Assembly (NCBI GenBank): GCA_937873155.1
Contig: CALMVZ010000013.1
Span: 1 to 64,000, forward strand
From: an uncultured Bacteroidota bacterium
Lineage (GTDB): Bacteria > Bacteroidota > Bacteroidia > B-17B0 > Aurantibacillaceae
Length of the DNA stretch: 64,000 nt
Direction: 5' to 3'
Below the pieces are notes generated by a model that had not been told where the DNA came from, made no database searches, and saw only the letters and a list, made by a program, of their open reading frames with translations. A program made the position numbers and the translations under genes. Shown piece by piece: positions 15,976 through 62,600 of this stretch (position 1 is the first letter of the stretch; each line of letters begins with the position of its first letter).

Positions 15976-16314
15976 TTACTGCTTCTTATCCAACATCATT
16001 AATTCGTTAGCTACTATCTCAGTGAAGTATTTCTTTACACCTTCTTTATCGGTATAATTACGTGTGGTTAGTTTTCCGTCAACTACCACGTGAGATCCTT
16101 TCTCAAGGTATTTTTCAGCTATACCTGCAAGTTTGCCCCAGATCACAATATTATGCCATTGTGTTTCTGTTACTTTTTCGCCTTTTTTGTTCGTGTAAAA
16201 GTCCGAAGTTGCTACGGTAAAACGCGCTACTTTATTTCCATTATCTAAGTCTTTTACTTCGGGAGTTGCACCTAGATTTCCTATTAACTGTACGCGGTTC
16301 TTCATTGTCATCAT
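15976..16314 (-). CDS. ssb: Single-stranded DNA-binding protein, short form (copy 1)
   Basis: 112 residues, essentially only the OB fold: NRVQLIGNLGATPEVK, VARFTVATSDFY, WHNIVIWGKLA, GSHVVVDGKLTTR, then YFTEIVANELMML. It lacks the flexible linker and acidic tip (DDDIPF type) with which the housekeeping SSB recruits partner proteins, and is much shorter than the usual 140-180 residues. Roughly two thirds identical by eye to the gene immediately upstream, so the two arose by tandem duplication. Binding of single-stranded DNA is expected; a specialised role in recombination or natural transformation is possible but unproven. Confidence 0.93.
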   Translation of the reverse strand: MMTMKNRVQLIGNLGATPEVKDLDNGNKVARFTVATSDFYTNKKGEKVTETQWHNIVIWGKLAGIAEKYLEKGSHVVVDGKLTTRNYTDKEGVKKYFTEIVANELMMLDKKQ

Positions 16315-16363: not shown

Positions 16364-16699
16364 TTACTTTTTGTTGTTCAACAGAAGTTCCATCGCTACT
16401 ACTTCGGTCACGTATTTTTTAGAACCATCTTTTGCGGTGTAGCTTCTCGAGCTTAATTTTCCATCCACAACTACTTCATTACCTTTTTTAAGTAATTGTT
16501 CGGCTGTGTTTGCCAGCTTGCCCCAGGCAACGATATTGTGCCAGTGTGTTGAGGTGATCTTTTCTCCTTTTTTGTTTAGATAATCTTCCGAAGTTGCTAC
16601 TGAAAAGCGCGCTACTCTGTTTCCGTTCTCTAAATTTTTCACTTCGGGTGTTGCTCCTAAATTGCCAATTAACTGTACGCGGTTTTTTACTGTATTCAT
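16364..16699 (-). CDS. ssb: Single-stranded DNA-binding protein, short form (copy 2)
   Basis: 111 residues, again an OB fold only (NRVQLIGNLGATPEVK, VARFSVATSEDY, WHNIVAWGKLA, EVVVDGKLSSRSY, TEVVAMELLL) without the acidic C-terminal tip. It lies 49 nt upstream of its paralog in the same orientation, presumably one transcript from the TACCTTTG box at 16813-16820, giving a leader of about 105 nt. The coding differences are spread over the whole gene, so the duplication is not recent. Confidence 0.93.
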   Translation of the reverse strand: MNTVKNRVQLIGNLGATPEVKNLENGNRVARFSVATSEDYLNKKGEKITSTHWHNIVAWGKLANTAEQLLKKGNEVVVDGKLSSRSYTAKDGSKKYVTEVVAMELLLNNKK

Positions 16700-17689: not shown

Positions 17690-19063
17690 TTATTTTTTTA
17701 GTCCTTTAAAATGTTTTTCAAAATATTTATCTGAAGGAAGCAAAGCAGTTTGAATACGCTTGGCATATTTTATACTGTCAGTGATCTCTTTATTCTTTTC
17801 CTCAACAATATCTTTTTGCTCTTCCAATTCAGCGGTTCGTTCTTTAACTTTTTGTTCGAGCATTGTGTTTTGTTCGCGGATCAGTTTTTCGTTCTCGTAA
17901 TTTGCTATGTTTAGTTTATCACCGATGGCAAAGGATAACATGATCGCTTCGATGGCCGATCCGATCTCAAGCGAGTACGCTTCAATGCCACCGATCGATA
18001 TATGCGTTGCGTTAGTTACAATAAGTATAACTAATCCCAGCATATAAGCTCCGAACCCCACCACATAGAATTTCGCAGGCCTGTAACCTTTGCGTAATAC
18101 AGTAATACCGGTCGCAAAACTTATAATAGCTAAAACAATCCCGAATACCTGGATGATCGCAACACTTTCGTGCGGATAACCTGATATAGCAAGGAAAACG
18201 GGCAATAATACCAGCATGATGAAGACCATAATGGCTTTGTGCAATTTTGGGGCAAGTTTCTTTGTATTTAAAAATTCGACGGTGAACAATAGGCCAAAGA
18301 AACCAAAGAGTGCCGGTACCAAAACCGGGAAACGGTTGAACATAAAAAGGAAGAATTCAGGAAGCACATAAATATAACCGATAAAGAAAGCGATGAACAA
18401 GGTGCTGAATATAATATAGAAAATATAGTAGATGTAAACTTTGTTGCGGTTGGTGAAAAAGAGAAACAAGTTATACAATACCATCAAGAACATAATGCCA
18501 TAGAACATGCCATGCAATAAGTTCAGGGTGTGATCCTCTTCAAAGAACGAACGGATATCAGCAGCCCTTAATGCAATTACCATCGGGCCGGACCCAACCG
18601 AACGTAAAAAATAAGTTAGCGTGTCACCGGGTTTCAGATCAAGATCGAATAAAATGTGACCGCCTACAAGTGTGCGTTCCTCTTTTGGATAAGGGATACC
18701 GCCATGTTGTGTTCGGATCAATCCTCCATTTTTAAAAGTATAAAGATCAATTTTATTATTGCTAGAGTTAGTATATTGTACAAGCCAATCTCCTTGTTCA
18801 GGCGATGTTGCCGAAAACTTACACCAGATCGCAGATTTTGTAATATTAAAATTCAGTATGTCATGACTTGAGGCTGTGAATTGTTTAACAGCACCCGGAG
18901 TTGTTACTTCATTTATGGTTTGTAACGCAGTTTCATCAATGTAAATACTGATGTGTTTTCCAATATGCGGCGGGCAATCGTTTCCCTTTTTTAAACGGAG
19001 AATGTTTTGCCCTTTAATTAAAGAGCAAAAAACTACAAGCAATATAACGAAAAATGGCCTCAT
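17690..19063 (-). CDS. 7TM-DISM membrane protein ending in a SpoIIE-type linker
   Basis: 457 residues. Signal peptide (about 1-18), an extracytoplasmic DISM beta domain (about 40-175, with SAIWCKFSATSPEQGDWLVQYTN), then seven transmembrane helices (about 185-385), a coiled coil (KVKERTAELEEQKDIVEEKNKEI) and the terminal DSIKYAKRIQTALLPSDKYF helix. In Bacteroidota the motif EI.DSI.YAKRIQ..LLP normally introduces a SpoIIE/PP2C phosphatase of about 200 residues, but here the protein stops about 12 residues later. No kinase or phosphatase domain is present. Its ATG overlaps the stop of the upstream TPR gene by four bases. It is the last gene of five that share this tail. The sensed signal is unknown. 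Confidence 0.85.
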   Translation of the reverse strand: MRPFFVILLVVFCSLIKGQNILRLKKGNDCPPHIGKHISIYIDETALQTINEVTTPGAVKQFTASSHDILNFNITKSAIWCKFSATSPEQGDWLVQYTNSSNNKIDLYTFKNGGLIRTQHGGIPYPKEERTLVGGHILFDLDLKPGDTLTYFLRSVGSGPMVIALRAADIRSFFEEDHTLNLLHGMFYGIMFLMVLYNLFLFFTNRNKVYIYYIFYIIFSTLFIAFFIGYIYVLPEFFLFMFNRFPVLVPALFGFFGLLFTVEFLNTKKLAPKLHKAIMVFIMLVLLPVFLAISGYPHESVAIIQVFGIVLAIISFATGITVLRKGYRPAKFYVVGFGAYMLGLVILIVTNATHISIGGIEAYSLEIGSAIEAIMLSFAIGDKLNIANYENEKLIREQNTMLEQKVKERTAELEEQKDIVEEKNKEITDSIKYAKRIQTALLPSDKYFEKHFKGLKK

Positions 19064-20535
19064 TTTTTTTTCAGGTGATTCAGGTTTTTACCAATGTACA
19101 CATCTGTAGGCATCAGGGCTTTCTGGATACGTTTCGCATACCTGATGCTATCTGTTATTTCTTTTTGTTTTAGTTCTACTAAATACTTTTGCATCGAGAT
19201 GATCTCATTCGCTTTCTGTTTTGATCTATAGGCCCTGAAAGATACAAAAGCAACAATGATCATCAATATAAAGCCGATTACACCACCGTAAGTATAAGTT
19301 CTTTGCTGTTTAATTTCCTCATCATGTTTAATGGCTTCCTGTTTCAGTAATTCTGCCGACCGGATACTATCGGCCATTTGCTGTTTGTAGAACACATAAT
19401 TCATTTCGATTTGCGTCTGCTTTTTTATCTGCTCGTTATTAGTAATGCTATCGCGTGCTGAAATGTGTCTTTTATAGAACCGAAATGCGAGATTTTTGTT
19501 ATTCTTAAAACTATACATATCGCTTAAATTCTTACAGGTCTCGCTTACACCTTCCAGATCACCGATCTCTTCACTTATTTTTAGCGACTGTTTTAAATAT
19601 TTTTCAGCTTCATTATAATCTTTAAGGGCTAAATAAATATTGCCAATGTTGCCCATGTTTATGGCGATTGTGCCCAGGTCTCCGATCTGCTCTAGTAATT
19701 TCACGGCTTGTAAATGAAATCCGAGTGCTTTTTTCTTGTCGTCCATGAAATTGTAAACTGAACCGATATTACCTAGTGTATTAGCTTCTAATTGAATATT
19801 TCCTAATTCCCTTGCATCGGCAAGAGCCCTGTTATAATACTGAAGTGCCGGTTCGTATTTATGTTCTTCAGTATACACATTGCCAAGGTTCCCCAACTGG
19901 ATCGCGAGATTGTTTGTTTTACCGAATTGCTGGGCAATGTTGATGGCCTTAATAAAATAGTCGCGGGCTTGAGTGTATTTTTTTTGAACATGATAAACAC
20001 CTGCAATATTTCCTAATATCCTGGCTTCCGAATTTTTTTCTTCTAACTGCTCATAAATTTTTAAGGATCTAAAATAATGATCTAAAGCAAGGGCATAATT
20101 TGTAAGGTCTTTGTGAACTATTCCAATATTGCCAATTGAAGCAGCTTTGCGGCTCAGATAGAATTTATTGTTTTTATGTTTTGTAAGAAGACTATCCCAT
20201 AGCGCAATGGCCTTATCATAATAATCAAGAGCAGCAGGATAGTTATTTTTGCTCCATGTAAGAAGCCCTAAATTGTGATAGGCATGGGCTTTTCCTTTTT
20301 GCCAATGCAACTGTATTGAAAGCTTGAGAGCCTGGTCAGCGAAAGTTGAAGCAGAATCAAAGTTCCTGTAACGCATTTCGAAAGAAATGGCATTAAGTGC
20401 GTTTACCATTGTGGTATCTTCTTTAACAGGCTGTAATCTTTTTAAAAGCGAATCAATTTTGCTGCCTTGAGCAAAGGCGGTATTAGCAGTAACCAGAACC
20501 GCACAAAATAATATATATATAGTTTTACAAGGCAC
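19060..20535 (-). CDS. TPR membrane protein ending in a SpoIIE-type linker (1)
   Basis: 491 residues. Signal peptide (AVLVTANTAFAQ), about seven tetratricopeptide repeats of the 40-residue NIG.VY....Y..AL.YY..AL type (about 40-340), a helical spacer, one transmembrane helix (YGGVIGFILMIIVAFVSFRAY, about 423-443) and a C-terminal cytoplasmic coiled coil with KQKEITDSIRYAKRIQKALM. The TPRs should be periplasmic and the tail cytoplasmic. As in the other four genes, the tail is the usual lead-in to a SpoIIE phosphatase, but no phosphatase follows. The start shares one base with the stop of the next gene upstream. Confidence 0.88.
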   Translation of the reverse strand: MPCKTIYILFCAVLVTANTAFAQGSKIDSLLKRLQPVKEDTTMVNALNAISFEMRYRNFDSASTFADQALKLSIQLHWQKGKAHAYHNLGLLTWSKNNYPAALDYYDKAIALWDSLLTKHKNNKFYLSRKAASIGNIGIVHKDLTNYALALDHYFRSLKIYEQLEEKNSEARILGNIAGVYHVQKKYTQARDYFIKAINIAQQFGKTNNLAIQLGNLGNVYTEEHKYEPALQYYNRALADARELGNIQLEANTLGNIGSVYNFMDDKKKALGFHLQAVKLLEQIGDLGTIAINMGNIGNIYLALKDYNEAEKYLKQSLKISEEIGDLEGVSETCKNLSDMYSFKNNKNLAFRFYKRHISARDSITNNEQIKKQTQIEMNYVFYKQQMADSIRSAELLKQEAIKHDEEIKQQRTYTYGGVIGFILMIIVAFVSFRAYRSKQKANEIISMQKYLVELKQKEITDSIRYAKRIQKALMPTDVYIGKNLNHLKKK

Positions 20536-22010
20536 TAACTTTTTATTTTTTTTAATTGCTTCAGATTTTTTTCAATGTATTTTTCACTCGGCATTAAGGT
20601 TTGCTGTATCCGTTTAGCGTAGCGGATGCTGTCAACGATCTCTTTTTGTTTCCCTTCAACAAGTAATTTTTGTGTTGATATTATCTCGTTAGTTTTTTGT
20701 TTGCTTTTATAGGCACGAAAACTTACCGCGGCCACTACTATCATCAGCATAAAACCTATCACTCCGGTATAGGTATAAGTGCGTTGTTGATGTATTGCCT
20801 GATCGTGTTTAAGTTTTTCTTGTTTGATCTGTTCTACATTTCGGATGCTGTCGGTGGTTTGTTGTTTATCAAATTGATATTGCATTTCCTGCCTGGTTTG
20901 TTTTTTAATATTCTCCTCGTTGGCAATACTATCGCGGAGGCTAATGTATTTTTTGTAATGTTCAAGGGCAAGTCCATAGCGACCGGTGATGTCATATAGT
21001 TCGCTAAGGGATCTTGAAAAATCCCTTGTATGGTCTAATGCTCCTATACTATCTCCGATCTTAACCGAGCGTTTCAGGTATTTTTCTGCTTCGTTAAATT
21101 TTCTGATTTTTGAATAGATTAACCCGATGTTACCGAGATGCAGCGCAATTCCGTATTTATCGCCTATTTCTTCCGCTATTTTCACTGCTTTGAAATAATA
21201 TCCCAATGCTTTAGTATAATCACCCTGGCTTTTATATACAATGCCGATGTTACCGAGAGTATTTGCGATTAAATTTTTCTCTCCAAGTTCCTCAACCATC
21301 TTCAATACCTTTAAGTCGTATTCCAGTGCTTTAGTATAATCCCCCTGATTGACATAAACAATTCCGATGTTACCAAGCCACATGGCAATCCTGCTTTTGT
21401 CTCCGAGTTCTTCTGCCATTTTCAACGCTTTAAAATAGTACTCCAATGCTTTGGGATGATCCCCTTGCTCAAAATACACAATTCCAATGCTGCCAAGGCA
21501 GGTAGCAACGCCCTCCTTGTTATTTAGGGCTTCATTAATTTTTAGTTCTTTGAAAAAATAGCTTAACGCATTGGGGTAGTCAGCCTGGTACAAATAAACA
21601 CCTCCAATGTTACCGAACAAGGTCGACATTTTTTCTTTATCTCCGAGTTCATTCGCCAGTTTAACTGCTTTTAAAAAATAATCCAGTGATTTGGAATAAT
21701 CAGATTTTACCAAGTGATAAATTCCAATGTTACCGAGTGCATTTGCTTGTCCTTTTTTCCAACCTGAGCGACCTGTCAGTTTTATTTTTTCGGTTAAAGC
21801 AAGGGCTTGCTTCGATATAATATAAGAAGAATCAGGATTAGCGTATTTAAGTTCCCATCCGAGATCATTCAGCGCAATTATTTTTGAAGTATCTTCTTTA
21901 ATTGTTTTAAGAACCGAAATAAGGGAGTCTATCTTGTTGTTTTGCGACAGACAAATAAATGATATAAGAAGCAAGATACTGCTGAAAATATATTTTAATG
22001 AGACTATCAC
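20535..22010 (-). CDS. TPR membrane protein ending in a SpoIIE-type linker (2)
   Basis: 491 residues, same architecture as its downstream neighbour: signal peptide, about eight TPRs with strikingly regular repeats (LGNIGIVY..QGDYTKALEYDLKVLKM and variants), one transmembrane helix (TGVIGFMLMIVVAAVSFRAYK) and the tail KQKEIVDSIRYAKRIQQTLM ending LKKIKS. The near-identical TPR units suggest recent internal repeat amplification. It overlaps the following gene by one base and the preceding one by four bases. No catalytic domain. Likely a membrane-anchored scaffold or sensor; partner unknown. Confidence 0.88.
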   Translation of the reverse strand: MIVSLKYIFSSILLLISFICLSQNNKIDSLISVLKTIKEDTSKIIALNDLGWELKYANPDSSYIISKQALALTEKIKLTGRSGWKKGQANALGNIGIYHLVKSDYSKSLDYFLKAVKLANELGDKEKMSTLFGNIGGVYLYQADYPNALSYFFKELKINEALNNKEGVATCLGSIGIVYFEQGDHPKALEYYFKALKMAEELGDKSRIAMWLGNIGIVYVNQGDYTKALEYDLKVLKMVEELGEKNLIANTLGNIGIVYKSQGDYTKALGYYFKAVKIAEEIGDKYGIALHLGNIGLIYSKIRKFNEAEKYLKRSVKIGDSIGALDHTRDFSRSLSELYDITGRYGLALEHYKKYISLRDSIANEENIKKQTRQEMQYQFDKQQTTDSIRNVEQIKQEKLKHDQAIHQQRTYTYTGVIGFMLMIVVAAVSFRAYKSKQKTNEIISTQKLLVEGKQKEIVDSIRYAKRIQQTLMPSEKYIEKNLKQLKKIKS

Positions 22011-23467
22011 TTGATCAGGTCATTTAATTTTTTTGAAATATATTTTTCGGTTGGCATAAGCGTTTGCTGGATCCGTTTGGCATATCTTATGCTGTCAACA
22101 ATTTCCTTTTGTTTTTCTTCAAGTTCATTATGCTGCTTTTCAATTTCTGTTTTCTGATCGTGTATTACCAGGTTCGCAGCTTTCTTTGCTTTATATTGTC
22201 TGAAAATAAAAACAGAGAACACTGATACTACAAAAAGGATCGCTAATGCAGCGCCAAGAATTAATTTTTGTTTTTTTACTTCTTCTTCATGCCTGAATTG
22301 GATCTTCTCGTTTTCGAGCTGGGCTATTTTTTTATCCTGTTCAATCTGGTAATTGTACTCCATCGATGAGATCTTCTTTCCAACTTCAGAACTGTATAGT
22401 GTATCTTTTAACTCAGAATATTTCTGGAAATAATCATAAGCTTTCTCAAAATCTTTTTTATCTCGGTATGCCTTAGATAAACCAAGGTAACTTTCTTTAA
22501 GCCTTGGAAGTTTGTTGGTAGTTAAATTGAACTCAACAGCTTTGTTCAAAAAATCAATGGCTTTATCCGGGTCTTTAAGCTGACGGTAAGTTTCGCCTAA
22601 TGAATTGAACAATCCTGATTTTATCTCTGCATCATTTGAATTCTCTACTAAAGAATAGGCACGTTTAAAATAATCTATAGCCGCTTCCGGCGCATTCTTT
22701 TGTAAATAGATACTCCCTATACCGGCATAACTATAAGCTTGTCCCTCTGTGTTTTTTTCAGCGGTTTGTATCACAAGGGCCTTGTTAAAATAGTACTGTG
22801 CCGAATCGAATTTATTTAAACTCCTGTAAGCACCCGCCAGATTAACATAACTGAACGACATGCGCATTTTATCGTTCAACTCAATGCGATACTTCAATGC
22901 TTTTTGCTGATTGCTTATCGCTTTCACAAAATCACCTTGGGAAGAATACAGATTCCCTAAACCACCATAGGCGTTTGCAATTTGGGTTTTATTACCGCCT
23001 TCTTCAGCGTACCGTAATGCTGTGAAAAAATATTCACTGGCCTGTTTGTAATTTCCTTCGTCTGTCAGGCAAAGTGCAAGCGTGTGATTGATCTTAAAAT
23101 GATCCTGCGCGTCTTTGCTCTTGATACATAATGGCAATGCACCTGTCAGATACAACTTGGCTTTGTCAATTTGTCCGCTGTTCTTATATATGTTCCCTGC
23201 AATAAAACGTGCTTTGATATTTCCGCGGTAATAATTCGTGCGTTCCGCAACACGTATCGCTGAATCGATGAACACAGGTATCTCTTCTTTGTCAGAATTC
23301 ATGTATAAATTATAGGTCAGGATATTTATTGATCCCACTGTAGCCGTATCATTCTTGGCATGTTGTAGTACTTTTTTAAGCGAATCAATTTTATTTTGCG
23401 GGAACAATGCTGATGATAAGAGCAGCACAGGTACAAGGATCAATAATCTATAACTAACGCTGTTCAT
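22007..23467 (-). CDS. TPR membrane protein ending in a SpoIIE-type linker (3)
   Basis: 486 residues: signal peptide (LLILVPVLLLSSALFPQ), about eight TPRs (about 40-370), a charged helix, one transmembrane helix (LILGAALAILFVVSVFSVFIF, about 404-424), then a coiled coil and EKQKEIVDSIRYAKRIQQTL followed by MPTEKYISKKLNDLIK. The C-terminal 45 residues are the best conserved part between this and the other four proteins, despite more divergent TPRs. Its start directly abuts the stop of the upstream gene. Confidence 0.88.
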   Translation of the reverse strand: MNSVSYRLLILVPVLLLSSALFPQNKIDSLKKVLQHAKNDTATVGSINILTYNLYMNSDKEEIPVFIDSAIRVAERTNYYRGNIKARFIAGNIYKNSGQIDKAKLYLTGALPLCIKSKDAQDHFKINHTLALCLTDEGNYKQASEYFFTALRYAEEGGNKTQIANAYGGLGNLYSSQGDFVKAISNQQKALKYRIELNDKMRMSFSYVNLAGAYRSLNKFDSAQYYFNKALVIQTAEKNTEGQAYSYAGIGSIYLQKNAPEAAIDYFKRAYSLVENSNDAEIKSGLFNSLGETYRQLKDPDKAIDFLNKAVEFNLTTNKLPRLKESYLGLSKAYRDKKDFEKAYDYFQKYSELKDTLYSSEVGKKISSMEYNYQIEQDKKIAQLENEKIQFRHEEEVKKQKLILGAALAILFVVSVFSVFIFRQYKAKKAANLVIHDQKTEIEKQHNELEEKQKEIVDSIRYAKRIQQTLMPTEKYISKKLNDLIK

Positions 23468-24802
23468 TTAATTTTTTAGGTGCTTTAGTTGTTTGTCAAC
23501 ATACTTCTCAGTAGGCATTAAAGCCTGTTGTATGCGTTTGGCATACCGGATGCTGTCAACTATCTCTTTTTGTTTTTCCTGTAACTCAGAATGTTGATGT
23601 TCTATCTCCGTTTTTTGAACCATGATGATCTTATTCTTCTTTTTATTTTGTACGAGTGCCCAAAGTACCAAGGCCACCACTAATAATGCTAGTATTAAGC
23701 CGATACTAACCGAGAGCGTGATCAATTCCTGGTGGCGCTTTTCTTCTTTGGCTATAGCTGCTGCTTTTTCTTCCTCAGCTTTTTTAGCAAGCTCTTTCTT
23801 TTCGAATTGGTAATTCATTTCTGCTTCAACAGATTTCTTGGTCACATCAGCATTGAACAAACTGTCTTTAGCGCCTACAGAAGTTTGGTAATGGTACAAG
23901 GCCGATTTATAATCTTTTAATTCTACGCAGGCAGCTGCGGCACCATTTGCATCTTTTTGTGCAGCTTGCATATTTCCGGCAGCAATATCTCCTTCCAGGC
24001 TTTCCAGGTAATATTTTTTAGCCTGTGCAAATTGTCCCATAGTAAAATATACAGCTGCAATGTTGCTAACGGTATTGTTTATTCCCATCACGTCATTTAC
24101 TTCCCTTTTTATTTTCAGTGAAGCCAGAAAATACTCAAGGGCTTTCTTAGTATCCTTGCGGTCGAGTGACACACCGCCTAAATTGTTCAGTGCAGCGGCT
24201 TCCCCTTTTTTATCTTTTAAAAGTTGACGCATTTCCAAAGCTTTTGTAAAACAATAGATTGAAGAATCAAATTTGTTTTGGTTACGGTACAGATTTCCCA
24301 TTGAGTTGTATACACCTGCTACACCTATAGTATAACCGGAAGCGGAATGGACCAAAAGCGCTTTATGCAGGTATTGATCTGCTTTTATATAATTTTTTAA
24401 GTTCGTGTATACAATGCCGATGTTGGTGCAGGCATTACCGATCAACTTCACATTATTAGTCTCTTCCGCTATTTTCAATGAAGCAAAATAATGCTCCAGC
24501 GCATCAGGATATTTACCCTGGAAAAGAAAAATATTCCCGTACAGATTTTCGGCAACTGACAGACCTTTTTTGAAATTCAGCTTTTTAGCCAGGTCTTGCG
24601 ATGTTTTTATAAGTTCAACCGATCTGTCGTAATCAGAAATGTTTGTATAAGCAGTTATAAGTTTAGCGAGACGGATGAATTTTACGGTATCATCCCTTAA
24701 CTTTAAGATATGATCCGCGGAATCTAATACGGTTTGCTGAGCTGTTGTTGTTAAAACAAAAAACAGGAACAGGAGCGATATTTTAATGTTTTTTAAGGCC
24801 AT
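23468..24802 (-). CDS. TPR membrane protein ending in a SpoIIE-type linker (4)
   Basis: 444 residues, first gene of the five-gene operon. Signal peptide (LLFLFFVLTTTAQ), about six TPRs (about 70-300), an Ala/Glu/Lys-rich helix, one transmembrane helix (about 362-384), then EKQKEIVDSIRYAKRIQQAL followed by MPTEKYVDKQLKHLKN. Read from a TATATTTA box only about 12 nt upstream of the ATG, so the leader is very short. Divergent from the XRE/S24 regulator gene, with an 86-nt shared control region containing two operator-like palindromes. Confidence 0.88.
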   Translation of the reverse strand: MALKNIKISLLFLFFVLTTTAQQTVLDSADHILKLRDDTVKFIRLAKLITAYTNISDYDRSVELIKTSQDLAKKLNFKKGLSVAENLYGNIFLFQGKYPDALEHYFASLKIAEETNNVKLIGNACTNIGIVYTNLKNYIKADQYLHKALLVHSASGYTIGVAGVYNSMGNLYRNQNKFDSSIYCFTKALEMRQLLKDKKGEAAALNNLGGVSLDRKDTKKALEYFLASLKIKREVNDVMGINNTVSNIAAVYFTMGQFAQAKKYYLESLEGDIAAGNMQAAQKDANGAAAACVELKDYKSALYHYQTSVGAKDSLFNADVTKKSVEAEMNYQFEKKELAKKAEEEKAAAIAKEEKRHQELITLSVSIGLILALLVVALVLWALVQNKKKNKIIMVQKTEIEHQHSELQEKQKEIVDSIRYAKRIQQALMPTEKYVDKQLKHLKN

Positions 24803-24888: not shown

Positions 24889-25668
24889 ATGATAAACAAG
24901 ATAGCTAACAACATCAAGTTCTTACGGCAGCTAAAAGGCCTGTCGCAGGAGCAAATGGCGGATGAATTAGAGGTAACCCGTTCGCGCATTGGCGGCTATG
25001 AAGAGGGCCGTAACGAACCGCCTATCGATCTTCTGATCAAGCTATCAGAGTATTTTCATATTGCCATAGATGCGCTTATTAAGGGCGATCTTAAAAAGAC
25101 CAACCCGGATGCTTTAATGAAAATAGGCAAGAACCGTATCTTGTTTCCTGTGATCATTGATAACGATGGGGATGATATGATAGAGTTGATCCCTGTTAAA
25201 GCATCGGCGGGTTATTTACGCGGTTATTCTGATCCTGATTATATAGAGCGTTTGCCACGCATGAAACTTCCGTTCTTACCCGTGGGTAAACACCGTGCTT
25301 TTCCTATAAAAGGAGATTCGATGCCACCAATAAAAGAAGGTGCCTTCATCATTGGTAAATATTTAGAGAAGCTGGATGATGTGAAAGACGGAATAACCTA
25401 TGTGGTAGTGACCAAAGATGATGGGTTAAGTTATAAACGCTTACACAACCTGAATAAAAAAGAAGGTACAGTTGAATTGCATTCTGATAATAAAATGTAC
25501 CAGCCTTATAAGGTCCGCCTGGATGATATTTTAGAATTGTGGGAATACACCTGTTGCATTAATACCGGTGATTACCGCGATGAAGAATTGAACCTGGATA
25601 GTATTATGAATATGCTGAAAGGGTTGAAGATCGAGATCGAGCAGATCAAAAAACAAAAAGTTAATTAA
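24889..25668 (+). CDS. XRE-family regulator with S24 (LexA/CI-like) peptidase domain
   Basis: 259 residues. The helix-turn-helix is about 8-60 (FLRQLKGLSQEQMADELEVT, RSRIGGYEEGRNEPP). The C-terminal half has an S24 fold: the possible self-cleavage bond Ala107-Gly108 (KASAGYLRG), nucleophile Ser144 (KGDSMPPI) and general base Lys183 (GLSYKRL), with 39 residues between Ser and Lys as in LexA/CI. Such proteins repress and are inactivated by self-cleavage upon damage or stress signals; many Bacteroidota homologues carry the dyad but their inducers are unknown. Two palindromes in its promoter are probable binding sites, and it may also control the divergent TPR operon. The stop codon lies inside a 38-nt perfect palindrome. 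Confidence 0.93.
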   Translation: MINKIANNIKFLRQLKGLSQEQMADELEVTRSRIGGYEEGRNEPPIDLLIKLSEYFHIAIDALIKGDLKKTNPDALMKIGKNRILFPVIIDNDGDDMIELIPVKASAGYLRGYSDPDYIERLPRMKLPFLPVGKHRAFPIKGDSMPPIKEGAFIIGKYLEKLDDVKDGITYVVVTKDDGLSYKRLHNLNKKEGTVELHSDNKMYQPYKVRLDDILELWEYTCCINTGDYRDEELNLDSIMNMLKGLKIEIEQIKKQKVN

Positions 25669-35682: not shown

Positions 35683-38600
35683 TTAATACTGTAATACAAC
35701 GAATCCGTTAGTTGTTTTCAAATTGGTCTCACCTTTGAATTCTAAGATGTAGTAGTAAGTTCCCTGAGGTAATTTCTGATTACCTAAAGTGCCGCTTACA
35801 TTCGGCATACCATTCCAGGTATTATCGTAGTTATCCATTTTGTAAACTTTATTACCCCAACGGTTGTAGATCGTTAATGTATTCTCTGTTTTCTGGATGC
35901 CTTTGATCACAAAGAAATCATTCGTGCCATCACCATTCGGCGTGAATACTTCAGGTATTAAGAACTTGTCGATCAACAATACAGTAGGAACATTATCTGA
36001 AGGTTCGTTCCAGATACCATTTGCATTGATATCAGGATTTGTTCCATCGTTAGAGAAGTCCGTTACCGGTGTTGTTGAAGTGCCAACAGCGCTACCGAAT
36101 GCAAAGTTGCTGATCACTGTTACAGTATCAGGCATCACATTAATTGTGAAGACAACTGAATTTATTGTATTAGGAGCCATTTTGCTTCCTGCTGTAACGA
36201 TCAGGTATGGATCGCTATTGCCATTGTAAGCAGAGTTCGGTGTTAATGAGCCCGTTAACATTGTAGGTCCGCTCTTCATGGAGTAAGATGCAGGTAATTT
36301 AATTGTTGTACCTGCTAAACTGTCTTTCAGTACAATGTTCCTTAATGTATCATTACCCAGGTTGTGGATCGATACAGTATAAGTAATATCGTAACTGCCA
36401 TCAATTAATTGTTGGCTTAATTCTCCTTGTTTAGTTACACCAAAGAATGTTTTAGGTGTTAAGTTCAACGGGGTAGGTGTATTGTTATTAGTTGGATTTC
36501 CGTCATTATCAGGATCTGTATTCAATCCTACTTGAGAAGAATCGGAAACAACGGTAGAAGAAACACCGCCCATTGCAGTACCTAATAACGAGTTATTGAA
36601 TGTTCCGAAGATGCCGTTTGGCGTTACATCAACAGTGAATATTAAAGTGTCAATTTCACCGATCGCTAATGAACTGCTTACAGTGTTTGTAATAACAGGT
36701 TGTGTTGAACCGTCGAATGTAGGATCAAGTGTTAAGCTGGTTACCGGGGTTGTAATTACCGGTGCGGAACTTACAGTGAATGTAGTTGGTAGCGGGAATG
36801 TGTTACTTAAGTTCTCGGTTAACGTAACATTATTCAGTATTGCAAAACCGGTATTTTTAACTACCACTTTATAAGTTACACTATAAGATCCGTTGGTGTT
36901 TGCCGTTACAGTTGTAATGGCTTTAGCTAACCCCAAAGAATTATTCACCGAACAATCTACCGAAACTAAGATCAGTGTTGTATCCTTAATACAACCATTA
37001 GCACCGAAGAAGCGTATTGTATATGGTTGATTAGCCACCGGATTAGAAAGTGTTGAAGTGATAACACTTGCAACAGGCGACGCGGTTGCATAAGTAGCAG
37101 TACCTGTATAAGTAGCACCTATAACAAGGTCATATTTATCACCCGCAACAAAATTACCTGCTAATATAGTTCCGTTGTTATCACTCACTGTACCTGTACA
37201 AGTTGCAGGAATTATAGTAGCAGTAACTGCTACATAAGTATCAGTAATAGCGGCTATAGTATTTGTAGACGTACACCCTGAAGCCGGATCAAAAGCACTA
37301 ACGGTATATACACCTCCGGTTGAAGTTGTGAAGTTAGTTGCTGTTGAAGTAAAGCTTGCCGGACCACTCCATGTATAAGTTACAGCAGCAACTGTTGAAC
37401 TTACAGTAATACTAACTGTATTAGTGATACAATTGATAGTGCCGGTTGCAGTTAAGCTAACTGTTGGCCCGGCAGTATTGGTCATGACCGCTGTAGTTGC
37501 TGTAGTGATACAACCATTCACCGCATCAATCACAGATAAAGTATAAACACCGCCTGTTGTTATACCTGTCGGGTTTTGCAATGAAGATGTATAAGAAGCA
37601 GGACCATTCCACATATAAGTTACGTTTGTAGAAGTTGTGCTTCCGAACAAGTCAACAGACGTAGTTAAACAAGTTAACGTTCCGCTATTTGTGGCAGTTA
37701 CGTTTTGTGGAGATTGTAATACATTAACAGTAATAGTTGCCGTATCAGCAGCACAAACTCCGTTCACGCCAATCACAGAATATGTAGTTGTTGTGGTTGG
37801 AGATGCTACAACCATTGAACCGGTCATGCTACCTGGTATCCATGTATAACTCATGGCGCCTGCAGATGTTAATGTAGTTGATAAGCCGCTACAAATTGTT
37901 GTTGGAGAAGCCGCGGCAGTTACTGTTGGATTTATAAATACAGTTAATGTTATTGTTGTTTTACCTTGACAGCCCATTGTATTTGTACCTGTAACTGAAT
38001 AAGTGGTGGTTACTGTTGGGGTAACTGTTATACTTGATCCGGATGTTGCACCCGGATTCCATGTATAGGTTGATGCACCGGAAGCTGTTAATGTAGCAGT
38101 ACTTCCAATACATATAGAGGTAGGCGTTGCAGTAGCGGTAACTGTAGGATCATTGATAGTAACCTGCACAGTTCCTGTGCCTGTACATCCTAAAGCATCA
38201 GTACCGCTGACAGTATAAATTGTTGTAACGCTTGGCGTAACAGCAAGCATAAAGGCAGGAATGCCGCCCGGATACCAAGTGTATGAGGTTGCACCGGTCG
38301 CACTTAATGTTGAAGTCGCACCGCTGCACATTATGCTCGGACTTGCAATACCTGTAACGGTTGGAGTTGGATTTACAATTAAAGAGATCGTATTGTTATT
38401 CGAACAAGTACCATTACTACCTGTGATCGTATAAACAGTTGTTGCAGTTGGAGTAACTACTACGTTACTTCCTGTCAATGATCCAGGCATCCATGTATAA
38501 GATGTAGCGCCGCTTCCTGTTAATGTTGCAGAAGTACCTGCACAAACTGCAGTTGAAGAACTCGCAGCATTAACACTTGGAACCGGAACGACAACCAAAT

Positions 38601-41600
38601 TAACCGTTTGAGCCCCTGTACAACCAAATGTATTGGTGCCGGCAACAGAATATGTAGTAGTAACAGTTGGGTTAACAACAATACTTGTTCCTGTACTTGC
38701 TCCCGGCATCCAGGTATAAGTTGAAGCGCCTGATGCGGTAATTGTAGCTGAACTTCCAACACAAATTGCAGTTGGTGAAGCGACAGCAGTAATAGTTGGT
38801 GTGTTTACATTTACCAATACAGTATTTGTTCTTGTACAACCGAACGAGTTAACACCTGTAACTGTATATATTGTAGTAACTGTTGGTGAAACCATTACCA
38901 TACTTCCTGTAACCGCAGCAGGCATCCATGTATAGGACGCAGCACCTGATGCAGTTAATGTGGTAATACCTCCGATACATATCATAGAAGGACTTGCGGA
39001 AGCTGTAATAGTTGGAGTAGGATTAACAGTTATACTTACAGTTTTTGTATTTGTACAACTTCCGTTAGCACCAACAACGGTGTAGATAGTAGTTGCGGTT
39101 GGTGTTACAACTATTGTTCCCCCTGTTAATGAACCGGGATTCCATGTGTAAGTTGTGGCGCCTACTGCTGTTAATGTTGCAGATGATCCTGAACATATAG
39201 TTGATGAAGCACTTGTAGTAACTGTTGGAGTTGTATTTACAATTAATGAAACTGTTTTAGTTGCTGTACAACCCGCGGCATTAATACCCGTTACAGTATA
39301 AGTTGTAGTTACTGTAGGACTCACAACAATTGAAGAACCTAACAAGGCAACAGGCATCCATGTATAGGATAAAGCGCCGGTTGCTGTCAGTGTTGCGGTT
39401 TGCCCTGAACACATTGTGGTCGGGTTCGCAACAGCGGTTAAGGTTGGCCCCGGTATTACTATAACGTTGATCGTTCTTGTTGAAGTACAACCTGTAGGAT
39501 TAGCACCTGTTACCGTATAAACAGTATTAGCTGTTGGGGTAACCACTACAGTTGCGCCAGTTAATGAACCTGGCATCCATGTATAAGTTGATGCACCGGA
39601 AGCAGTAAGTGTATAAGGATTTCCTGCACAAACCGGCACAGTAGGAGTGCTGCTGGCCGTTACAGTAGGATTTGGATTAACAACTAAATTCAATGTCTGC
39701 GTTCCTGTACAACTTCCATTTGCACCCGTGATGCTGTATGTAGTAGTTGTAGCAGGCGTAACAACAACTGTAGCTCCGGTCAATGACCCGGGCATCCATG
39801 TATAAGTTGTGGCGCCGCTTGCAGTCAATGTTGCAGAATTACCCGCACAAAGCGCCGTAGGATTACTAACTGCTGTTACAGTAGGATAAGTATTTACCAT
39901 TATAGATACTGTAGCAGTTGAAGTACATATACCATTAGATCCTGTCACAGTATAAACAGTAGTTACTGTAGGTGATACAACTTGCGGTGTTCCGATCAAA
40001 CCGCCCGGGTTCCAAGTATATGAAATAGCTCCGGTTGAACTTAATGTAGCAGTATCGCCTATACAAATAACTGTTTTACTTGTAAGAGCTGTAATAGTTG
40101 GTCCTGAGAACACAGTTACAGTCACAACAGCAGTATTTGTACATCCTGAAGCATTTGCTCCTGTTACAGTATATGATGTTGTGATAGTTGGCGAAACAAC
40201 ACCTGTCATAGGAATTGCAGGCGACCAGGTATAAGTTGTAGCGCCGCTGGCTGTTAAAGTAGACGAAGACCCTGCGCAAATTGCGGGTGGGTTAGCTGAC
40301 ACAGTTAACGAAGGAATTGGTCCTACACTTAAAGAAACAGTTTGCGTATTTGTACAACTTCCATTTGCCCCTGTAACAGTATAAACTGTAGTAACTGTCG
40401 GATTCACTGCTACGGTTGCACCTGTTAATGATCCCGGCATCCATGTATAAGATGTGGCTCCTGTTGATGTTAATGTTGCTGTTGAACCGATACACATTCC
40501 TGTTGGATTTGCCACAGCAGTTAAAGTAGGAGTGGTGGTAACCGTTAATGTTACAGTTGCTGTATTAGAACATGTTCCGTTATTTCCGGTTACAGTATAT
40601 GTTGTAGTAACTGAAGGCGTAACTGTTACGGTTGTACCTGATAAAGAACCAGGCATCCAAGTGTAAGTTGTTGCGCCGCCCGCTGTTAATGTTGCAGAAC
40701 TTCCTGAACAAATTGCAGTCGGAGAAGTTGCCGCAGTAACAGTTGGACTTGGATTAACAAAAACCATCACAGCGCTGGTATCGGTACATGAACCATTGGC
40801 CCCTGTAACAGTATATGTTGTGGTCACACTTGGAGAAGCAGTAACTGTTCCTCCTGATAAAGAACCCGGCATCCATGTATAAGAGGTAGCTCCGCCGGAC
40901 GATAATGTAACTGTTTGTCCGGCACAGATAGTAGATGAAGAAACAGATGCGGTTACTGTAGGATTTGGATTAACTGTTAATGTTAGTTGTAAAACCCCGC
41001 GGCAACCAAATGCGTTTGCGCCGGCTACTGAATAAGCAGTTGTAGATGCAGGTGAAACTAATAATGGATTTACAAATACAGGACCCGGTAACCAGGTATA
41101 TGTTCCTGTTGCACCTGAAGCAGTAAGTGTTGCAGTTTGTCCTGCACAAATAGATAAAGAAGGAGCAGCTGAAACAGTTATTGTTGGAGTCGGGTTAACA
41201 GTGATTGTAATCACAGTAGTACCTGTACATCCTGACGCACTCATACCTGTTAACGTATATGTGGTATTTACGGTAGGGCTTACAACTACGTTAGGAGCAA
41301 GTAAACTTCCCGGCATCCATGTATAAGAAGTTGCGCCGGCCGCAGTAAGTGTCGCGCTTCTTCCTGAACAGATAATTCCTGTTGTTGGATTAGAAGTTGC
41401 GATTACAGTCGGAGTTGGATTAACGGTTAAAGAAACTGTATTTGTATTTGTACAAGCACCGTTCGCGCCCGTAACAGTATAAATAGTTGTTGCAGTCGGT
41501 GTTACGGCTACAGTTGCACCTGTAAGAGAACCCGGCATCCAGCTATAAGTTGTAGCGCCGCTTCCGGTTAAGGTTGCTGATGCACCTGCACAGATCGCGG

Positions 41601-44600
41601 TTGGATTTGATACCGCAGTAACTGTTGGCTGAGGTGTAACTGAAACCTGAACAGCAATTGTACTCGAGCAGGTTCCGTTATTTCCTGTTAAAGTATAGTT
41701 AGTTGTTGTAACCGGTGTAACAACAACAGTAGCGCCTGATAAAGAACCCGGCATCCATGTATAAGAAGTGGCACCGCTTCCGGTTAATGTTGCAGAACTT
41801 CCCGAACAAATCGCTGTCGGGTTAGCAACTGCCGTTAATGTTGGTCCAGGGGTTACATTTAATGTTACAGTATTTGTATTCGTACAGCCTGCAGCAGTTG
41901 CACCTGTCACAGTGTAAGTTGTCGTTATGGTTGGAGAAACAACAACAGTACCTCCTGATAAAGAACCCGGATTCCATGTATAAGTTGCCGCACCACTTGA
42001 TGTTAATGTTGCAGATGTTCCGGAGCAAATACTTGGCGATGAAGCTGCAGCTGTAATTGTTGGATTAGGATTTACAGTAAGAGAAACTGTTCTTGTGTTC
42101 GAACAAGTTCCGTTAGACCCTGTAACAGTATAAACAGTTGTTACGGTCGGACTAACGGTCACCGTACCTCCGGGTAAAGAACCGGGATTCCAAGTATAAG
42201 ATGTAGCGCCGGTTGATGTTAATGTTGCAGATGAACCAACACAAATTGCTGTCGGGTTAGCAACAGCTGTTAAAGTTGGTGTGGCATTTACAGTTAACAG
42301 AACTGTTGTAGACGAAGAACAGGCGGCAGTCGTTCCTGTTAAAGTATAAGTAGTAGTTACTGTTGGCGAAACTGCAACTGTAGCACCGGTTAAAGATCCC
42401 GGCATCCAGGTATAAGTTGTAGCGCCGCTTCCGGTTAATGTAGCCGAGCTTCCTGAACAGATTGCAGTTGGATTCGCCACTGCAGTAACCGTTGGTAATG
42501 GTATCACTATTAAATTTACTGTTCTCGTGCTTGTACAGCTTCCATTCGCACCTGTTACTGTATAAATTGTAGTTACTGTTGGTGATACGGTCACTGTTCC
42601 ACCTGATAATGAACCGGGATTCCATGTATAAGATGTCGCGCCTGTTGATGTTAATGTTGCAGAAGATCCCGCGCAGATCGCTGTTGGATTAGCAACAGCT
42701 GTCAATGTCGGAGTAGCAGTAACCGTTACTGTAACAGTCGCTGTATTTGAACAAGTGCCGTTATTTCCGGTAACTGTATAAGTTGTATTTACAGTTGGAG
42801 AAACAGAAACAGTTGATCCGGTTAAAGATCCCGGCATCCAGGTATAAGTGGTAGCGCCACCTCCGGTTAAAGTTGCAGAACTTCCTGAACAAATCGATGT
42901 AGGGTTAGCTGATGCTGTTACGGTTGGTTGTGGAGTTACACTTACTAAAACTGTATTTGTTCCCGTACAACTTCCGTTAGCTCCTGTTACAGTATATGTT
43001 GTAGTAACAGTTGGAGATACAGTCACAGTTCCGCCTGATAAAGATCCCGGCATCCATGTATAAGTTGTAGCACCTGAAGATGACAAGCTAACTGTACTTC
43101 CCGAACAAACTGTTGGTGAAGATGCTGCCGCTGTTACTGTAGGAGTAGCGGTAACCGTTAGTGTAACTGTACGTGTATTTGTACAACCTGCAGCACTTGC
43201 GCCTGTCACAGTATAAGTTGTGGTCACTGTAGGATTTACCGTAACAGTTCCTCCGGATAAAGATCCGGGATTCCATGTATAAGATGCGGCCCCTGTAGAA
43301 GTTAAGGTTACAGTTGTACCCGCACCGCTACAAATAGAAGTTGGATTGGCAACTGCTGTTAATGTAGGGCTTGGACTAACAGTAACAGAAACGTTAGCCG
43401 AATTGGTACAAGTTCCGTTAGAACCGATAACCGTATAAGCTGTATTTGCTGTTGGTGTAACTACAACCAAAGATCCTGTCAATGAACCGGGATTCCATGT
43501 ATAAGTAGTTGCACCGCCTGCTGTTAATGTTAATGATGTTCCTGCACAAACTGTTGCGGAAGAAGCAGAAGCTGTAACAGTAGGAGGGGTGTTAACCGTT
43601 GTCTGAACTGTTCTTGTTGAAGAACAGGTTCCGTTCGATCCGGTTACTGTATAAACAGTTGTACTTACAGGAGAAACAGTAACAGTGCCTCCAATTAACG
43701 CTCCCGGATTCCATGTATAAGATGTAGCTCCTGTTGAAGTCAGTGTTGCTGAACCGCCTGCGCATATTGATGCAGGATTACTAACTGCAGTTAAAGTAGG
43801 TTGCGGATTTACAGTTAAAACAACAGTACGTGTTCCTACGCAAGATAAAGGACTTGTTCCGCTAACTGTATATGTAGTTGTGATGGTTGGAGTAACTGTA
43901 ACTGTTGCGCCTGATAAAGATCCGGGCATCCATGTATAAGTTGAAGCGCCACTTGAAGTTAAGGTAACTGTCGCGCCACTTCCAAAACAAATTGAAGTTG
44001 GGTTAGCAACTGCTGTTAATGTTGGAGATGGATTAACAGTAATTGAAACGTTCGCTGAATTCGTACACGTTCCCGTTGCACCAATAACTGTATAAGTTGT
44101 ATTTGTTGTCGGAGAAACTACTACAGATGCTCCTATTAACGAACCGGGGTTCCATGTATAAGTTGTTGCGCCGCCTGCTGTAAGTGTTAAAGATGTTCCT
44201 GCACAAACCGTTGATGAAGATGCAGATGCTGTAACAGTAGGAGGGGTGTTAACCGTTGTCTGGACTGTTCTTGTTGAAGAACATGATCCGTTCGATCCGG
44301 TAACTGTATAAACTGTTGTACTCGCAGGAGAAACAACGACTGTGCCACCCGGTAATGAACCAGGCATCCACGTATAAGATGTGGCACCTGTTGAGGTTAA
44401 TGTTGCAGAACCCCCTACACAAATTGTGGCAGGATTACTAACTGCTGTCAGAGTTGGAGTTGGATTAACCACAACCTGAAGTGTACGTGTACCTGGACAA
44501 GTCAAAGTATTTGTTCCGGTAATAGTATAAATTGTAGTTGAAGCCGGACTTACAGTTACCATGGATCCTGTCATAGCTCCGGGATTCCATGTATAGTTGG

Positions 44601-59692: not shown

Positions 59693-62600
59693 TCAATTCC
59701 CAAGTATCGTAAACGCGCCCCAATAATAAGGATGCGGGTATTTTTTTCGCACTTCGGCCTGTGCTTTTTTGAAAGACTTACTTATATTTTCTTTGGCTGG
59801 ATTCAAAGCCCATTCTTTGTAGAATTCACTCATTAGAATTTGTGTGGCATCATCATCCACTACCCACAAACTCATAATTAAGTTTTTAGCGCCTGCTATA
59901 TAGAAAGCACGCTGCAAACCAAATACCCCTTGGTTGTTGATGTCAACTCCCAAACCTGTTTCGCAGGCAGAGAGAACTACTAGATCAGTATTGGCTAAAT
60001 TCAATAAAGATGCTTCGTAAGCTGTAAAGATCCCGTCCTGCTCGAATTCAGTTGCTAATGTATCTCTTGCTACAACAGAAGCGCCTGCCATCATGATACC
60101 GGAACGTAATAAAGGATTGCTTTTTAATTTGGACGCCTCAAATCCTAAAATCGTTTCGTCCTCATTATCGTAAACATCTTTTAAGAAGAAGCCATGCGTC
60201 GCGATATGCAATACTTTAGGTGAGTTTACTTTTTTCAATTGTTCTTCGGAAGCTTTTTCTTCAATGAATTTATTTATTTTCCAGGCATTGGCCTGTAATG
60301 AATTTGAAATATTATCAACCTCGGTTTTTGTCCCCGGCAAAGGTGGTAGTTCGCTAAATCCAAAACGGTTCACAGCAACCGCTTGTTTTAGTTTTTCCAT
60401 TTTCTTTTGTTTGGCAAAATCAAATTCATAATCGGGGTAACCGAACAGCTCGGCGGTTTTTGATGCATTCACGCTTTGTTTCTGCATCATGTAATTTAAG
60501 TTTGGTAATACACAAAGATCGATCTCATCTAAAACATACTTTGAGGTTGCCGGATTTTGTAGTGTATATAAATTCACCTGGTTGTAAACTCCATCCGGAG
60601 AAATATACACTTTTGTTATGCCATTTAAGTTTGAAGCGATCTGTTTCCAGAACCTGTCGTAAGATATTTTATCCGTTTTCCTGTTCTCAATATTATCGCT
60701 GTATTCCTGTGCAAAAGTAGTTTCAAAATCTTTCGACTTAGTTATTTTGGTAAGGATAGGTGCAGAAGAATTTTTGGTGATGATAAAAGCAGCGTATTCG
60801 ACGACATAATTCGTATCCGTTCCGGCTTTTTGCGCTCGGATGATATTAATAGCCGCTTCGTTAGGTTGCAGTTTGTTTTTCAGGTCAGCAAAGGTCACAA
60901 CTTTGCCGGGTGAGAATAGGGTGGTTTTACTTTTTAATTGTTGTTCCAGTTTATCAGCCCTGAGTTCAAGATCTGAGATACTCCACATATTATCGTCATT
61001 GATCAATTCCCTGTATCTTGATGACAACACTTGTTTTGTATTTAACCAATCATTATACAAATTCACCAAAACAGTATCCTTGCTGTTTAAAATTTCGCGG
61101 CGTGAACTAACATTGTTGTTCAACAATAAAGATTTGATGAACATCTGGTAATTAAAACATGTACTGAAAAGCTCAGTGTTGTTTTCTTTCGGGAATTTAT
61201 CAGCGTAATCAAAAATAAAACTGTTGAAGGTCTCAAAACGATCGGCAATTGTTCCGTAATAAGAGAACTGTTCGCGTTCACTCATTGTAACGAAGAAATT
61301 GTCGAATTGATCTTTATATGCCTGTAAAGCCCAATAGTACAATTCTTTCGCTTTCTTATAATTCTTCATACTCCAATACAGTGAACCCAGACTAAATACG
61401 CCATCAATATAAGCAGTGTGTTTCTCGCCGAATTTCTTTTTTACAATACCATTAGCCTGTTCAAAATAAGGGATCGCTTTTTCGTATTGTCCCGTTCTTT
61501 CGTAAATGTTTCCAAGCCCGCTTAAGAAATAAGCGTAACGTTCATGTTCTTCCCCAACTGCTTTTTTCATTAACTCAAGCGCTTTCTTCGAATATTCTTC
61601 TGCTTCCTTGTTTTTTTTCATACGGGAATACAGCGAAGCAAGGTTGTGAATGCAATTGGCATAGAACTGGTGATCTTCCCCTAAAGTAGCTTTGTAGATT
61701 TTTTCAGCCTTTACCAAATAGGGTTCTGCTTCTTCGTAACGGTATTGGTCAGTATAAAGCAATGCAACATTGGTTAAGCCGTTCGCATAAGTAAAATGAT
61801 CTTCACCGCTAGTATTCTTACGGATAATTAAAACTTCGCTTAAAAGATCGGTAGCTTGCTGATACCTTCCTAAGATACGGTACATCTCCGCTTTATTATT
61901 TAAGGAGTTTGTATAATCAGGGTTTCCACCGAGATCAAGGGAGCGATAAATGTACATACAGCTGTCATAACAAATTTCCGCACGTTTATAATTTCCCATT
62001 GCTTTATAACATAAGCCCGAATTATTATAAATTGTAGCTGTAGATAATTTATCTGCATTCTTATATTTAGCTGAGAGGTTTAATCCTTTATTCAATAATT
62101 TAAGGGCAACATCATAATTTCCTGTCTGACGATAAGCTTCAGCTGTATTATTTAAAGTGGTGATATAATCAGTGGTATCCATTGGTCTTAACGAAGCGTG
62201 AGTCTTCAATAAGCTGTTAAAGATCTCGATGGCTTTGTTGTAATCACCCATGCCTTGCGCGATCTGTGCATCAGTATTCAAAGCAATTAAATATTCTCTG
62301 TCTTTTTCCCCGCGAAGTGTTTTAAAATAATACATGATCGCGTCGTTCATCGGCTTGGCGTATTTATAGTTGCCCATCTCTACGTACATCTGTGCTAGCA
62401 CCCTGTACATTTTTGTATAATCTTCACTGCCGGCACCATATACTCTTGCCATGATCGGTAAGGCCTGGACGAACATTTGCTCGGCTTGCGGATAATACCC
62501 GATGTGGTTGTACATGTAGGCTAAATTGTACTGTGCAAAACCCCATGCAATTGTATCACCTGAAGCGTAACCGTCATTGAAGGCCTGCACATAATATTCT

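Follow-up and report, generated by a model that had tools for sequence, protein, structure and literature searches.

In the genome of an uncultured bacterium of the phylum Bacteroidota (family Aurantibacillaceae), an array of five genes encodes membrane proteins that all end at a helical linker of the kind that leads into a SpoIIE/PP2C phosphatase domain in related proteins, and it is this array and its possible catalytic partner that are considered here. The array lies in a window of 64,000 nucleotides, by which we mean the whole stretch of DNA that was analysed (contig CALMVZ010000013.1, hereafter C13, positions 1 to 64,000), and its coordinates are collected in Table 1. According to the list of open reading frames (ORFs), the five genes abut or overlap by 1-4 bases, three starting with ATG and two with GTG. 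Four of the products combine an array of tetratricopeptide repeats (TPRs) with a transmembrane (TM) segment, and the fifth is a 7TMR-DISM receptor by its Pfam matches (PF07695, 7TMR-DISM_7TM, E 2.9e-41; PF07696, 7TMR-DISMED2, E 1.3e-22). By hydropathy, a membrane segment is present 76-125 residues ahead of the C-terminus of each protein, consistent with a topology in which the TPRs would lie outside the membrane and the tail inside. All five products stop 28-31 residues past the start of the linker motif SIxYAKRIQ; none of them has a Pfam match to a SpoIIE/PP2C domain, and a SpoIIE profile finds no such domain anywhere on contig C13. The ORFs, the Pfam matches and the SpoIIE profile thus bear out the preliminary description of this DNA, which had reported five overlapping or abutting genes for four TPR-transmembrane proteins and one 7TM-DISM protein, all lacking a phosphatase.

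The tails of the five proteins are clearly related, with 19 of 47 columns invariant in an alignment of their ends. Compared in pairs over 38 codons, they are 55-79% identical in amino acids and only 29-50% in third codon positions; since the amino acids were kept while the third positions diverged, the likeness must be old and held by selection, and does not reflect recent copying. The helix that had been described as near-identical is indeed common to all five, although at these identities the wording was slightly strong. That description had also named two ways in which the tails might prove accidental, namely an assembly break or frameshift in front of an intact phosphatase, or a full phosphatase in the same genes of close relatives, and neither is the case. 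Within the array the next gene begins immediately and C13 is devoid of SpoIIE matches, so that no lost phosphatase can lie behind the stops, and all 39 tails of this genome that are not fused to a phosphatase end at most 45 residues past the motif. The same locus in three congeneric genomes carries three or four genes of this tail-only type and no gene flagged as fused SpoIIE: three abutting tail-only genes in G002 (recognised by two ssb genes and an S24-type gene as markers), three in G004 (by the ssb pair) and four in G005 (by the S24-type gene). The genes at these loci leave no space for a fused SpoIIE gene, except in G005, where one gap measures 530 bases. A clear counterpart at the relatives' locus exists for gene 2 alone (52-54% identity, in two congeneric genomes), indicating that the array turns over while the tail is kept.

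Searched with a profile built from the five tails, the 4.85 Mb genome has 78 matching places at E<=1, with E-values from 3.5e-28 to 2.4e-4, and a SpoIIE profile identifies 41 genes (42 rows, two of them from one gene). Matched by contig, position and open frame, the 78 tail places divide into 39 linkers inside SpoIIE proteins, where the window tail corresponds to the stretch leading into the SpoIIE/PP2C domain, and 39 tail-only places, 37 of which were read as distinct sequences and the last two separately. Intact-looking genes account for 37 of the 39 tail-only places, and two are decayed: an orphan 54-aa tail ORF without a sensor and with unrelated genes on both sides (L063:6878-7042), and a TPR-membrane protein and tail lying in different frames with overlapping ends, the result either of a frameshift in a tail-only gene or of an error in the sequence (L064:4998-6499). 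Among 34 of the 39 tail-only proteins, Pfam finds TPR_12 in 30 and 7TMR-DISM_7TM in two. By simple hydropathy, 32 of 37 tail-only proteins have their last membrane segment beginning at a distance of 70-101 residues from the C-terminus; two of the others are multi-helix receptors (125 and 127 residues) and three have no segment, two of these being the decayed ones and the third (L052) a protein of ordinary length, its start codon being assumed.

The tail consists of a coiled coil followed by two helices, and the second of these helices distinguishes the two classes of protein. In a comparison of 37 tail-only proteins with 26 distinct fused linkers (those of the 39 that lie in fetched loci), the mean pairwise identity of helix 1 within each class is similar, 0.72 among the tail-only proteins and 0.67 among the fused linkers of this genome. 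For helix 2 the values are 0.45 and 0.19, a difference reached in 0 of 500 permutations of the labels. A helix 2 that is more alike among tail-only proteins is expected if all tails fit one partner, since a linker that serves its own core is free to drift and dozens of tails that serve one core are not.

A candidate for such a partner is encoded in the same genome. Two of the 41 SpoIIE genes are without this linker. One (C10:520731) is part of a 409-residue protein of another type; the other (C10:539647, P0001) encodes a free SpoIIE/PP2C core of 237 aa, which begins MEAVATETKNFFILYKPKDIVSGDFYY, at the point where fused linkers end. Its catalytic core runs from about residue 11, leaving no sensor or linker of its own in the chain, and its gene sits directly behind a tail-only TPR gene, on contig C10 and hence apart from the window array on C13. 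The GDFY, ADCTGHG, TDG and DD columns, which form the catalytic motifs and include the metal-binding aspartates, are invariant in 28 aligned rows of relatives.

Solo cores form a single group. In a tree of 146 cores, from which short or duplicate cores were left out, one branch separates 43 solo from 103 fused cores (support 99/99, and present in 100% of 200 bootstrap trees); under a midpoint root, chosen for drawing only, the solo cores are nested among the fused ones, and several long fused branches were flagged. We also scanned named contigs and kept, of 573 loci, the 80 most similar to the solo core, a selection that is not a random sample. Of these 80 loci, 41 carry a stand-alone core, 37 fused cores only (including L179, whose apparently solo ORF starts at core residue 54) and two neither (L148, L149). 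Tail-only genes, up to five per locus, occur in the fetched flanks of 16 of the 41 solo loci and of none of the 37 fused ones (Fisher 6.7e-6), and at 14 solo loci one lies on the same strand within 200 bases. At locus L061 (6046-8235) a tail-only gene and a solo core stand in one frame with two stops between them, an arrangement that would fit a split arising by fission of one fused gene. A solo core (L141) and a fused core (L160) belong to a record that bears the name Candidatus Saccharibacteria (BOG_genome_mining.63), a bin that is probably mislabelled.

Tail-only proteins and the solo core occur together in genomes with hardly an exception. Among 41 relatives, the ten with a solo core (that of G003 cut by a contig end) hold 39, 29, 45, 32, 40, 61, 12, 90, 10 and 2 tail matches at E<=1e-9, compared with 0-4 in each of the 31 without. 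A larger survey covered 395 genomes of the class, in which the best 20 tail and best 7 core candidates per genome were scored, so that the counts are minimum values and a weak tail may have been missed in a genome without solo core. The tail model used here begins at the conserved S, as a version reaching further upstream parted tail-only from fused proteins poorly. A solo core was present in 24 of the 395 genomes, one per genome among the candidates scored, and a gap in score sets solo cores (at least 405 bits) apart from fused cores (at most 381 bits); G015, whose core lies in a 252-aa frame truncated by the end of a contig and scores 352 bits, in the range of fused cores, was counted as lacking one. 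In a phylum sample of 395 genomes, no second solo core was found at E<=1e-112; the genomes listed there, 374 being outside the list, all belong to the same class.

Tail matches at E<=1e-10 were present in 24 of 24 solo-core genomes and in 12 of the 371 others, there one or two each. All 24 matches at this threshold in genomes without solo core, from the sets of 41 and 395 genomes together, were read: 23 are fused linkers, the best of them with E 2.2e-12, and one is a remnant in G338. As scored and read, tail-only proteins therefore occur in 24 of 24 genomes with and in one of 371 genomes without a solo core (Fisher 1.5e-37, kinship ignored). In 19 of the 24 the tail-only sequences were read directly, and in G067, G105, G251, G265 and G276 they were recognised by a best E<=1.0e-14; in G118, one of three tail matches proved to be fused. 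The G338 remnant (G338:C15:526-951, L234) is a 141-residue protein with a signal-like start, a scrap of TPR and an intact tail, which lies among fused SpoIIE genes in a genome with no solo core detected and seems to have decayed after the core was lost.

The association also holds within genera. Six solo-core genomes of genus g1 have 29-61 tail matches at E<=1e-9, whereas G006 and G007, of the same genus but without solo core, have two each and none at 1e-10. In genus g2, six solo-core genomes have 1-20 tail matches and the five listed without one have none; in genus g30, three have 3-11 and the listed genomes without solo core at most two, all fused when read. By a first look at SpoIIE candidates, G006 (54) and G007 (63) are about as rich in SpoIIE as the genome of the window (55) and yet have no tail match at E<=1e-10, which argues that tail-only proteins go with the solo core rather than with fused SpoIIE. 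The preliminary description had suggested counting tails with and without SpoIIE and looking for co-occurrence with stand-alone SpoIIE genes, and it is this comparison that lends support, together with the fitting solo core, to its proposal that the tail is conserved in its own right and would bring in a phosphatase encoded by another gene, direct binding being the conjectural part.

Both halves resemble adjacent parts of one known enzyme, SiaA. In the NCBIfam SiaA model NF038263, residues 395-446 of gene 5 match positions 379-430 (E 2.2e-9), the tail of gene 2 matches positions 391-431 (E 9.5e-4) and the solo core matches positions 437-656 (E 8.5e-38), neither half coming near the equivalog cut-off of 700 bits. 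Genes 1, 3 and 4 have no match to this model at E<=0.01; their tails align with those of genes 2 and 5. The best PDB match of the solo core by sequence is 6k4e, the PP2C domain of SiaA from P. aeruginosa, which is also the best fold match of a predicted tail-plus-core model of middling quality. A PDB profile search with 66 fused relatives again finds 6k4e (E 1.1e-59), with the linker inside the alignment. The predicted structure of one fused relative from the same genome (L005) has a mean predicted local distance difference test (pLDDT) score of 94.6, linker helices included, and superposes on residues 409-662 of 6k4e, giving Z 32.6 and 1.6 A for 243 residues. The SiaA-PP2C crystal is reported to contain a tight homodimer formed via helices alpha1, alpha2 and alpha3, with residues traced from 407 on (PMC7647112); by the superposition, alpha1 and alpha2 would lie in the stretch equivalent to the tail. 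For RsbU, RsbP and RsbZ, a coiled-coil linker and an alpha0-alpha1-alpha2 dimer interface are reported to pass the signal to the PP2C domain, RsbU becoming active when its linker drives dimerisation by way of such helices (PMC12143880).

Taken together, we consider it probable that each of the five window proteins is the sensing half of a SiaA-type phosphatase that has been split, with many sensor dimers docking on one shared core and controlling it. Each sensor would have its sensing part, made of TPRs or 7TMR-DISMED2, outside the membrane, cross the membrane once or seven times and continue in the cytoplasm as a coiled coil ending in the two-helix tail, the tail corresponding to the linker of fused relatives plus the N-terminal helices that help the PP2C domain dimerise. 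The catalytic half would be the free core of about 237 residues, which lacks these helices and is encoded once per genome. A sensor dimer would present two tails on which the shared core could dock, thereby becoming dimeric, membrane-bound and, most likely, active, and the active core might then dephosphorylate a partner-switch protein, SiaC-like or of the STAS type. About 37 intact sensors of this genome would in this way feed one phosphatase. What the data document is the anatomy and conservation of the tails, the single group of solo cores, its linkage to tail-only genes at some of the loci, the near-perfect co-occurrence and the correspondence of both halves to SiaA, while binding, activation, allostery, topology and substrate class are what we infer. 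We further lean towards a one-to-many hub, in which dozens of membrane sensors turn on a single soluble PP2C subunit by lending it the missing helices in trans.

Several observations weigh against this proposal. At 25 of the 41 named solo loci there is no tail-only gene in the fetched flanks, so that the link there rests on co-occurrence, and co-occurrence could partly reflect common inheritance, although genera g1, g2 and g30 show contrasts within the genus. No SiaC gene lies near any of the 41 named solo genes. Closer kinship of the tail-only paralogs may partly be behind the conservation of helix 2, and the comparison of the helices allowed no gaps, so that the fused linkers pass into their cores out of step with one another. 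Some tail-only genes adjoin fused SpoIIE genes, as is the case for at least three in this genome (near C36:89029, C10:188132 and C11:483568) and for one in G001. Finally, a one-chain model of one tail with the solo core reached a mean pLDDT of 70.2, with tail residues 30-48 below 50 and the tail unplaced; as the expected complex is a dimer of dimers, the unplaced tail neither supports nor refutes docking.

The genes that adjoin fused SpoIIE genes speak for another reading, in which the tails pair with the linkers of fused SpoIIE sensors and modulate them as mixed dimers, the solo core being incidental. Both classes are abundant in one genome, helix 1 is nearly as conserved in the one as in the other and mixed coiled coils, which the preliminary description had offered as its alternative, are thinkable. 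We nevertheless regard this as quite unlikely, given that the SpoIIE-rich congeneric genomes G006 and G007 do without a solo core and without any tail match at E<=1e-10, that helix 2 is distinctive of the tail-only proteins, and that tail-only genes flank 16 of the 41 named solo loci and none of the 37 fused-only ones. The idea that tail-only genes are remnants of fused genes after loss of the phosphatase can draw on known decayed cases, namely the orphan tail, the frameshifted copy and the remnant in G338. It is largely refuted and highly improbable in view of the uniform ends of all 39 tail-only places, most of them with the common helix 2, the near saturation of third codon positions with the amino acids kept, the arrays maintained across congeneric genomes and the co-occurrence with the solo core.

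Other readings accept that tails and solo core belong together and differ in what the contact does. Tails might dock on the core in order to sequester or inhibit it, the free core being active; the genomic evidence all fits either sign, and a core that keeps its catalytic motifs in the 28 aligned rows could act alone. This seems unlikely in the light of RsbU, which is reportedly activated by linker-driven dimerisation (PMC12143880), and of the SiaA-PP2C dimer formed via alpha1-alpha3 (PMC7647112), by comparison with which a core without the first helices is expected to be less active. It is likewise unlikely that the tail is a scaffold only, bringing the solo core to the membrane without control by the individual sensor: the regular distance between the last membrane segment and the C-terminus would suit such a role, and recruitment alone would explain the common tails, but L052 appears to have no membrane segment and the tail helices correspond to dimer helices of SiaA, which makes them no mere anchor.

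The split phosphatase that we propose resembles several known systems in part. SiaA of Pseudomonas aeruginosa, of the SiaABCD module, is the closest, the window tail and the solo core matching adjacent stretches of its model and SiaC-family proteins being encoded in this genome too; SiaA, however, is one polypeptide with its own sensor, whereas here the helices and the catalytic core belong to different proteins, with many of the former to one of the latter. In RsbU, RsbP and RsbZ the linker is covalent and it is the partner RsbT that binds the RsbU linker, while tail-only sensors would supply the linker in trans. The fused SpoIIE sensors of Bacteroidota share the same linker (39 such proteins here), but the window proteins stop at it and the core is encoded elsewhere, on C10. 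With the TPR sensor histidine kinase FimS (NF053520), the four TPR proteins of the window share the TPR array and membrane segment, matching the front part of that model with 79-117 bits, far below its 600-bit cut-off, and carrying the tail in place of the kinase domain. In eukaryotes, PP1 is one catalytic subunit common to many regulators, which bind it via a short conserved docking element. This is an analogy only, as the folds are unrelated and the PP1 element is an unstructured motif, in contrast to a two-helix tail that stems from the N-terminus of the enzyme itself. In the titles and abstract openings listed by searches of an open-access library, neither tail-only proteins nor a core that lacks the linker and is shared were described. 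We rate the component parts as known kinds and the split many-to-one layout as a new form of the linker-controlled phosphatases of the SiaA/RsbU type.

As to substrates, the genome encodes five SiaC homologues, one clear RsbW-like HATPase (a 139-aa frame) among 17 HATPase_c_2 matches, and one clear STAS protein besides a weak, stop-containing match. Among the named loci, a SiaC gene lies near two of the 37 fused ones. Set against the 41 SpoIIE genes and 39 tail-only places, these few candidates amount to a strong fan-in.

The array is adjoined by a divergent gene for a protein with a helix-turn-helix (HTH) and an S24-type domain, which could possibly be its controller. The tandem genes on the other side are presumably those of single-stranded-DNA-binding proteins. 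Further along the window, a single protein of 3460 residues with many similar repeats is encoded at 35683-46065 on the minus strand, its C-terminal end resembling what we take to be a gliding-motility-associated C-terminal domain, and a TPR protein at 59693-62842, also on the minus strand, has a C-terminal part resembling what is presumably a CHAT-type peptidase domain.

Table 1. Features of the tail-only gene array and its neighbours, in positions of the window
Feature	Position	Strand	Basis or remark
Gene 1, 444 aa: TPR array, one TM segment, SpoIIE-linker tail, then stop	23468..24802	-	ORF list, Pfam, hydropathy
Gene 2, 486 aa: TPR array, TM segment, tail	22007..23467	-	ORF list, Pfam, hydropathy
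Gene 3, 491 aa, GTG start: TPR array, TM segment, tail	20535..22010	-	ORF list, Pfam, hydropathy
Gene 4, 491 aa, GTG start: TPR array, TM segment, tail	19060..20535	-	ORF list, Pfam, hydropathy
Gene 5, 457 aa: 7TMR-DISMED2, 7TMR-DISM_7TM, coiled coil, tail	17690..19063	-	ORF list, Pfam, hydropathy
Tail of gene 1: coiled coil, helix 1 (SIRYAKRIQQAL), helix 2 (TEKYVDKQLKHLKN)	23471..23602	-	tail alignment/profile; helix limits as suggested by predicted models (tail-plus-core, fused relative)
Tail of gene 2	22010..22141	-	tail alignment/profile
Tail of gene 3	20538..20675	-	tail alignment/profile
Tail of gene 4	19063..19191	-	tail alignment/profile
Tail of gene 5	17693..17824	-	tail alignment/profile
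HTH and S24-type protein, divergent, adjoining the array	24889..25668	+	Pfam; 95% identical in G002 and 89% in G005, at the same place
Two tandem ssb-like genes	15976-16314 and 16364-16699	-	kept beside the tail-only array in G002 and G004

Bacterial PP2C signalling has been understood as one sensor with one covalently attached phosphatase. If the hub exists as we lean to think, a whole sensory repertoire, 37 intact sensors here and up to 90 tail matches in a relative, would converge on one enzyme. The separation seems to let one enzyme serve a large and fast-changing set of receptors via a short docking tail, by the same logic as eukaryotic PP1. It would also offer a natural experiment on how a linker switches a PP2C domain, as linker and core are here separable, mixable and titratable, and the tail motif could be used for scanning genomes for further members. 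The split phosphatase would thereby account for a large class of membrane proteins in Bacteroidota for which no output is apparent.

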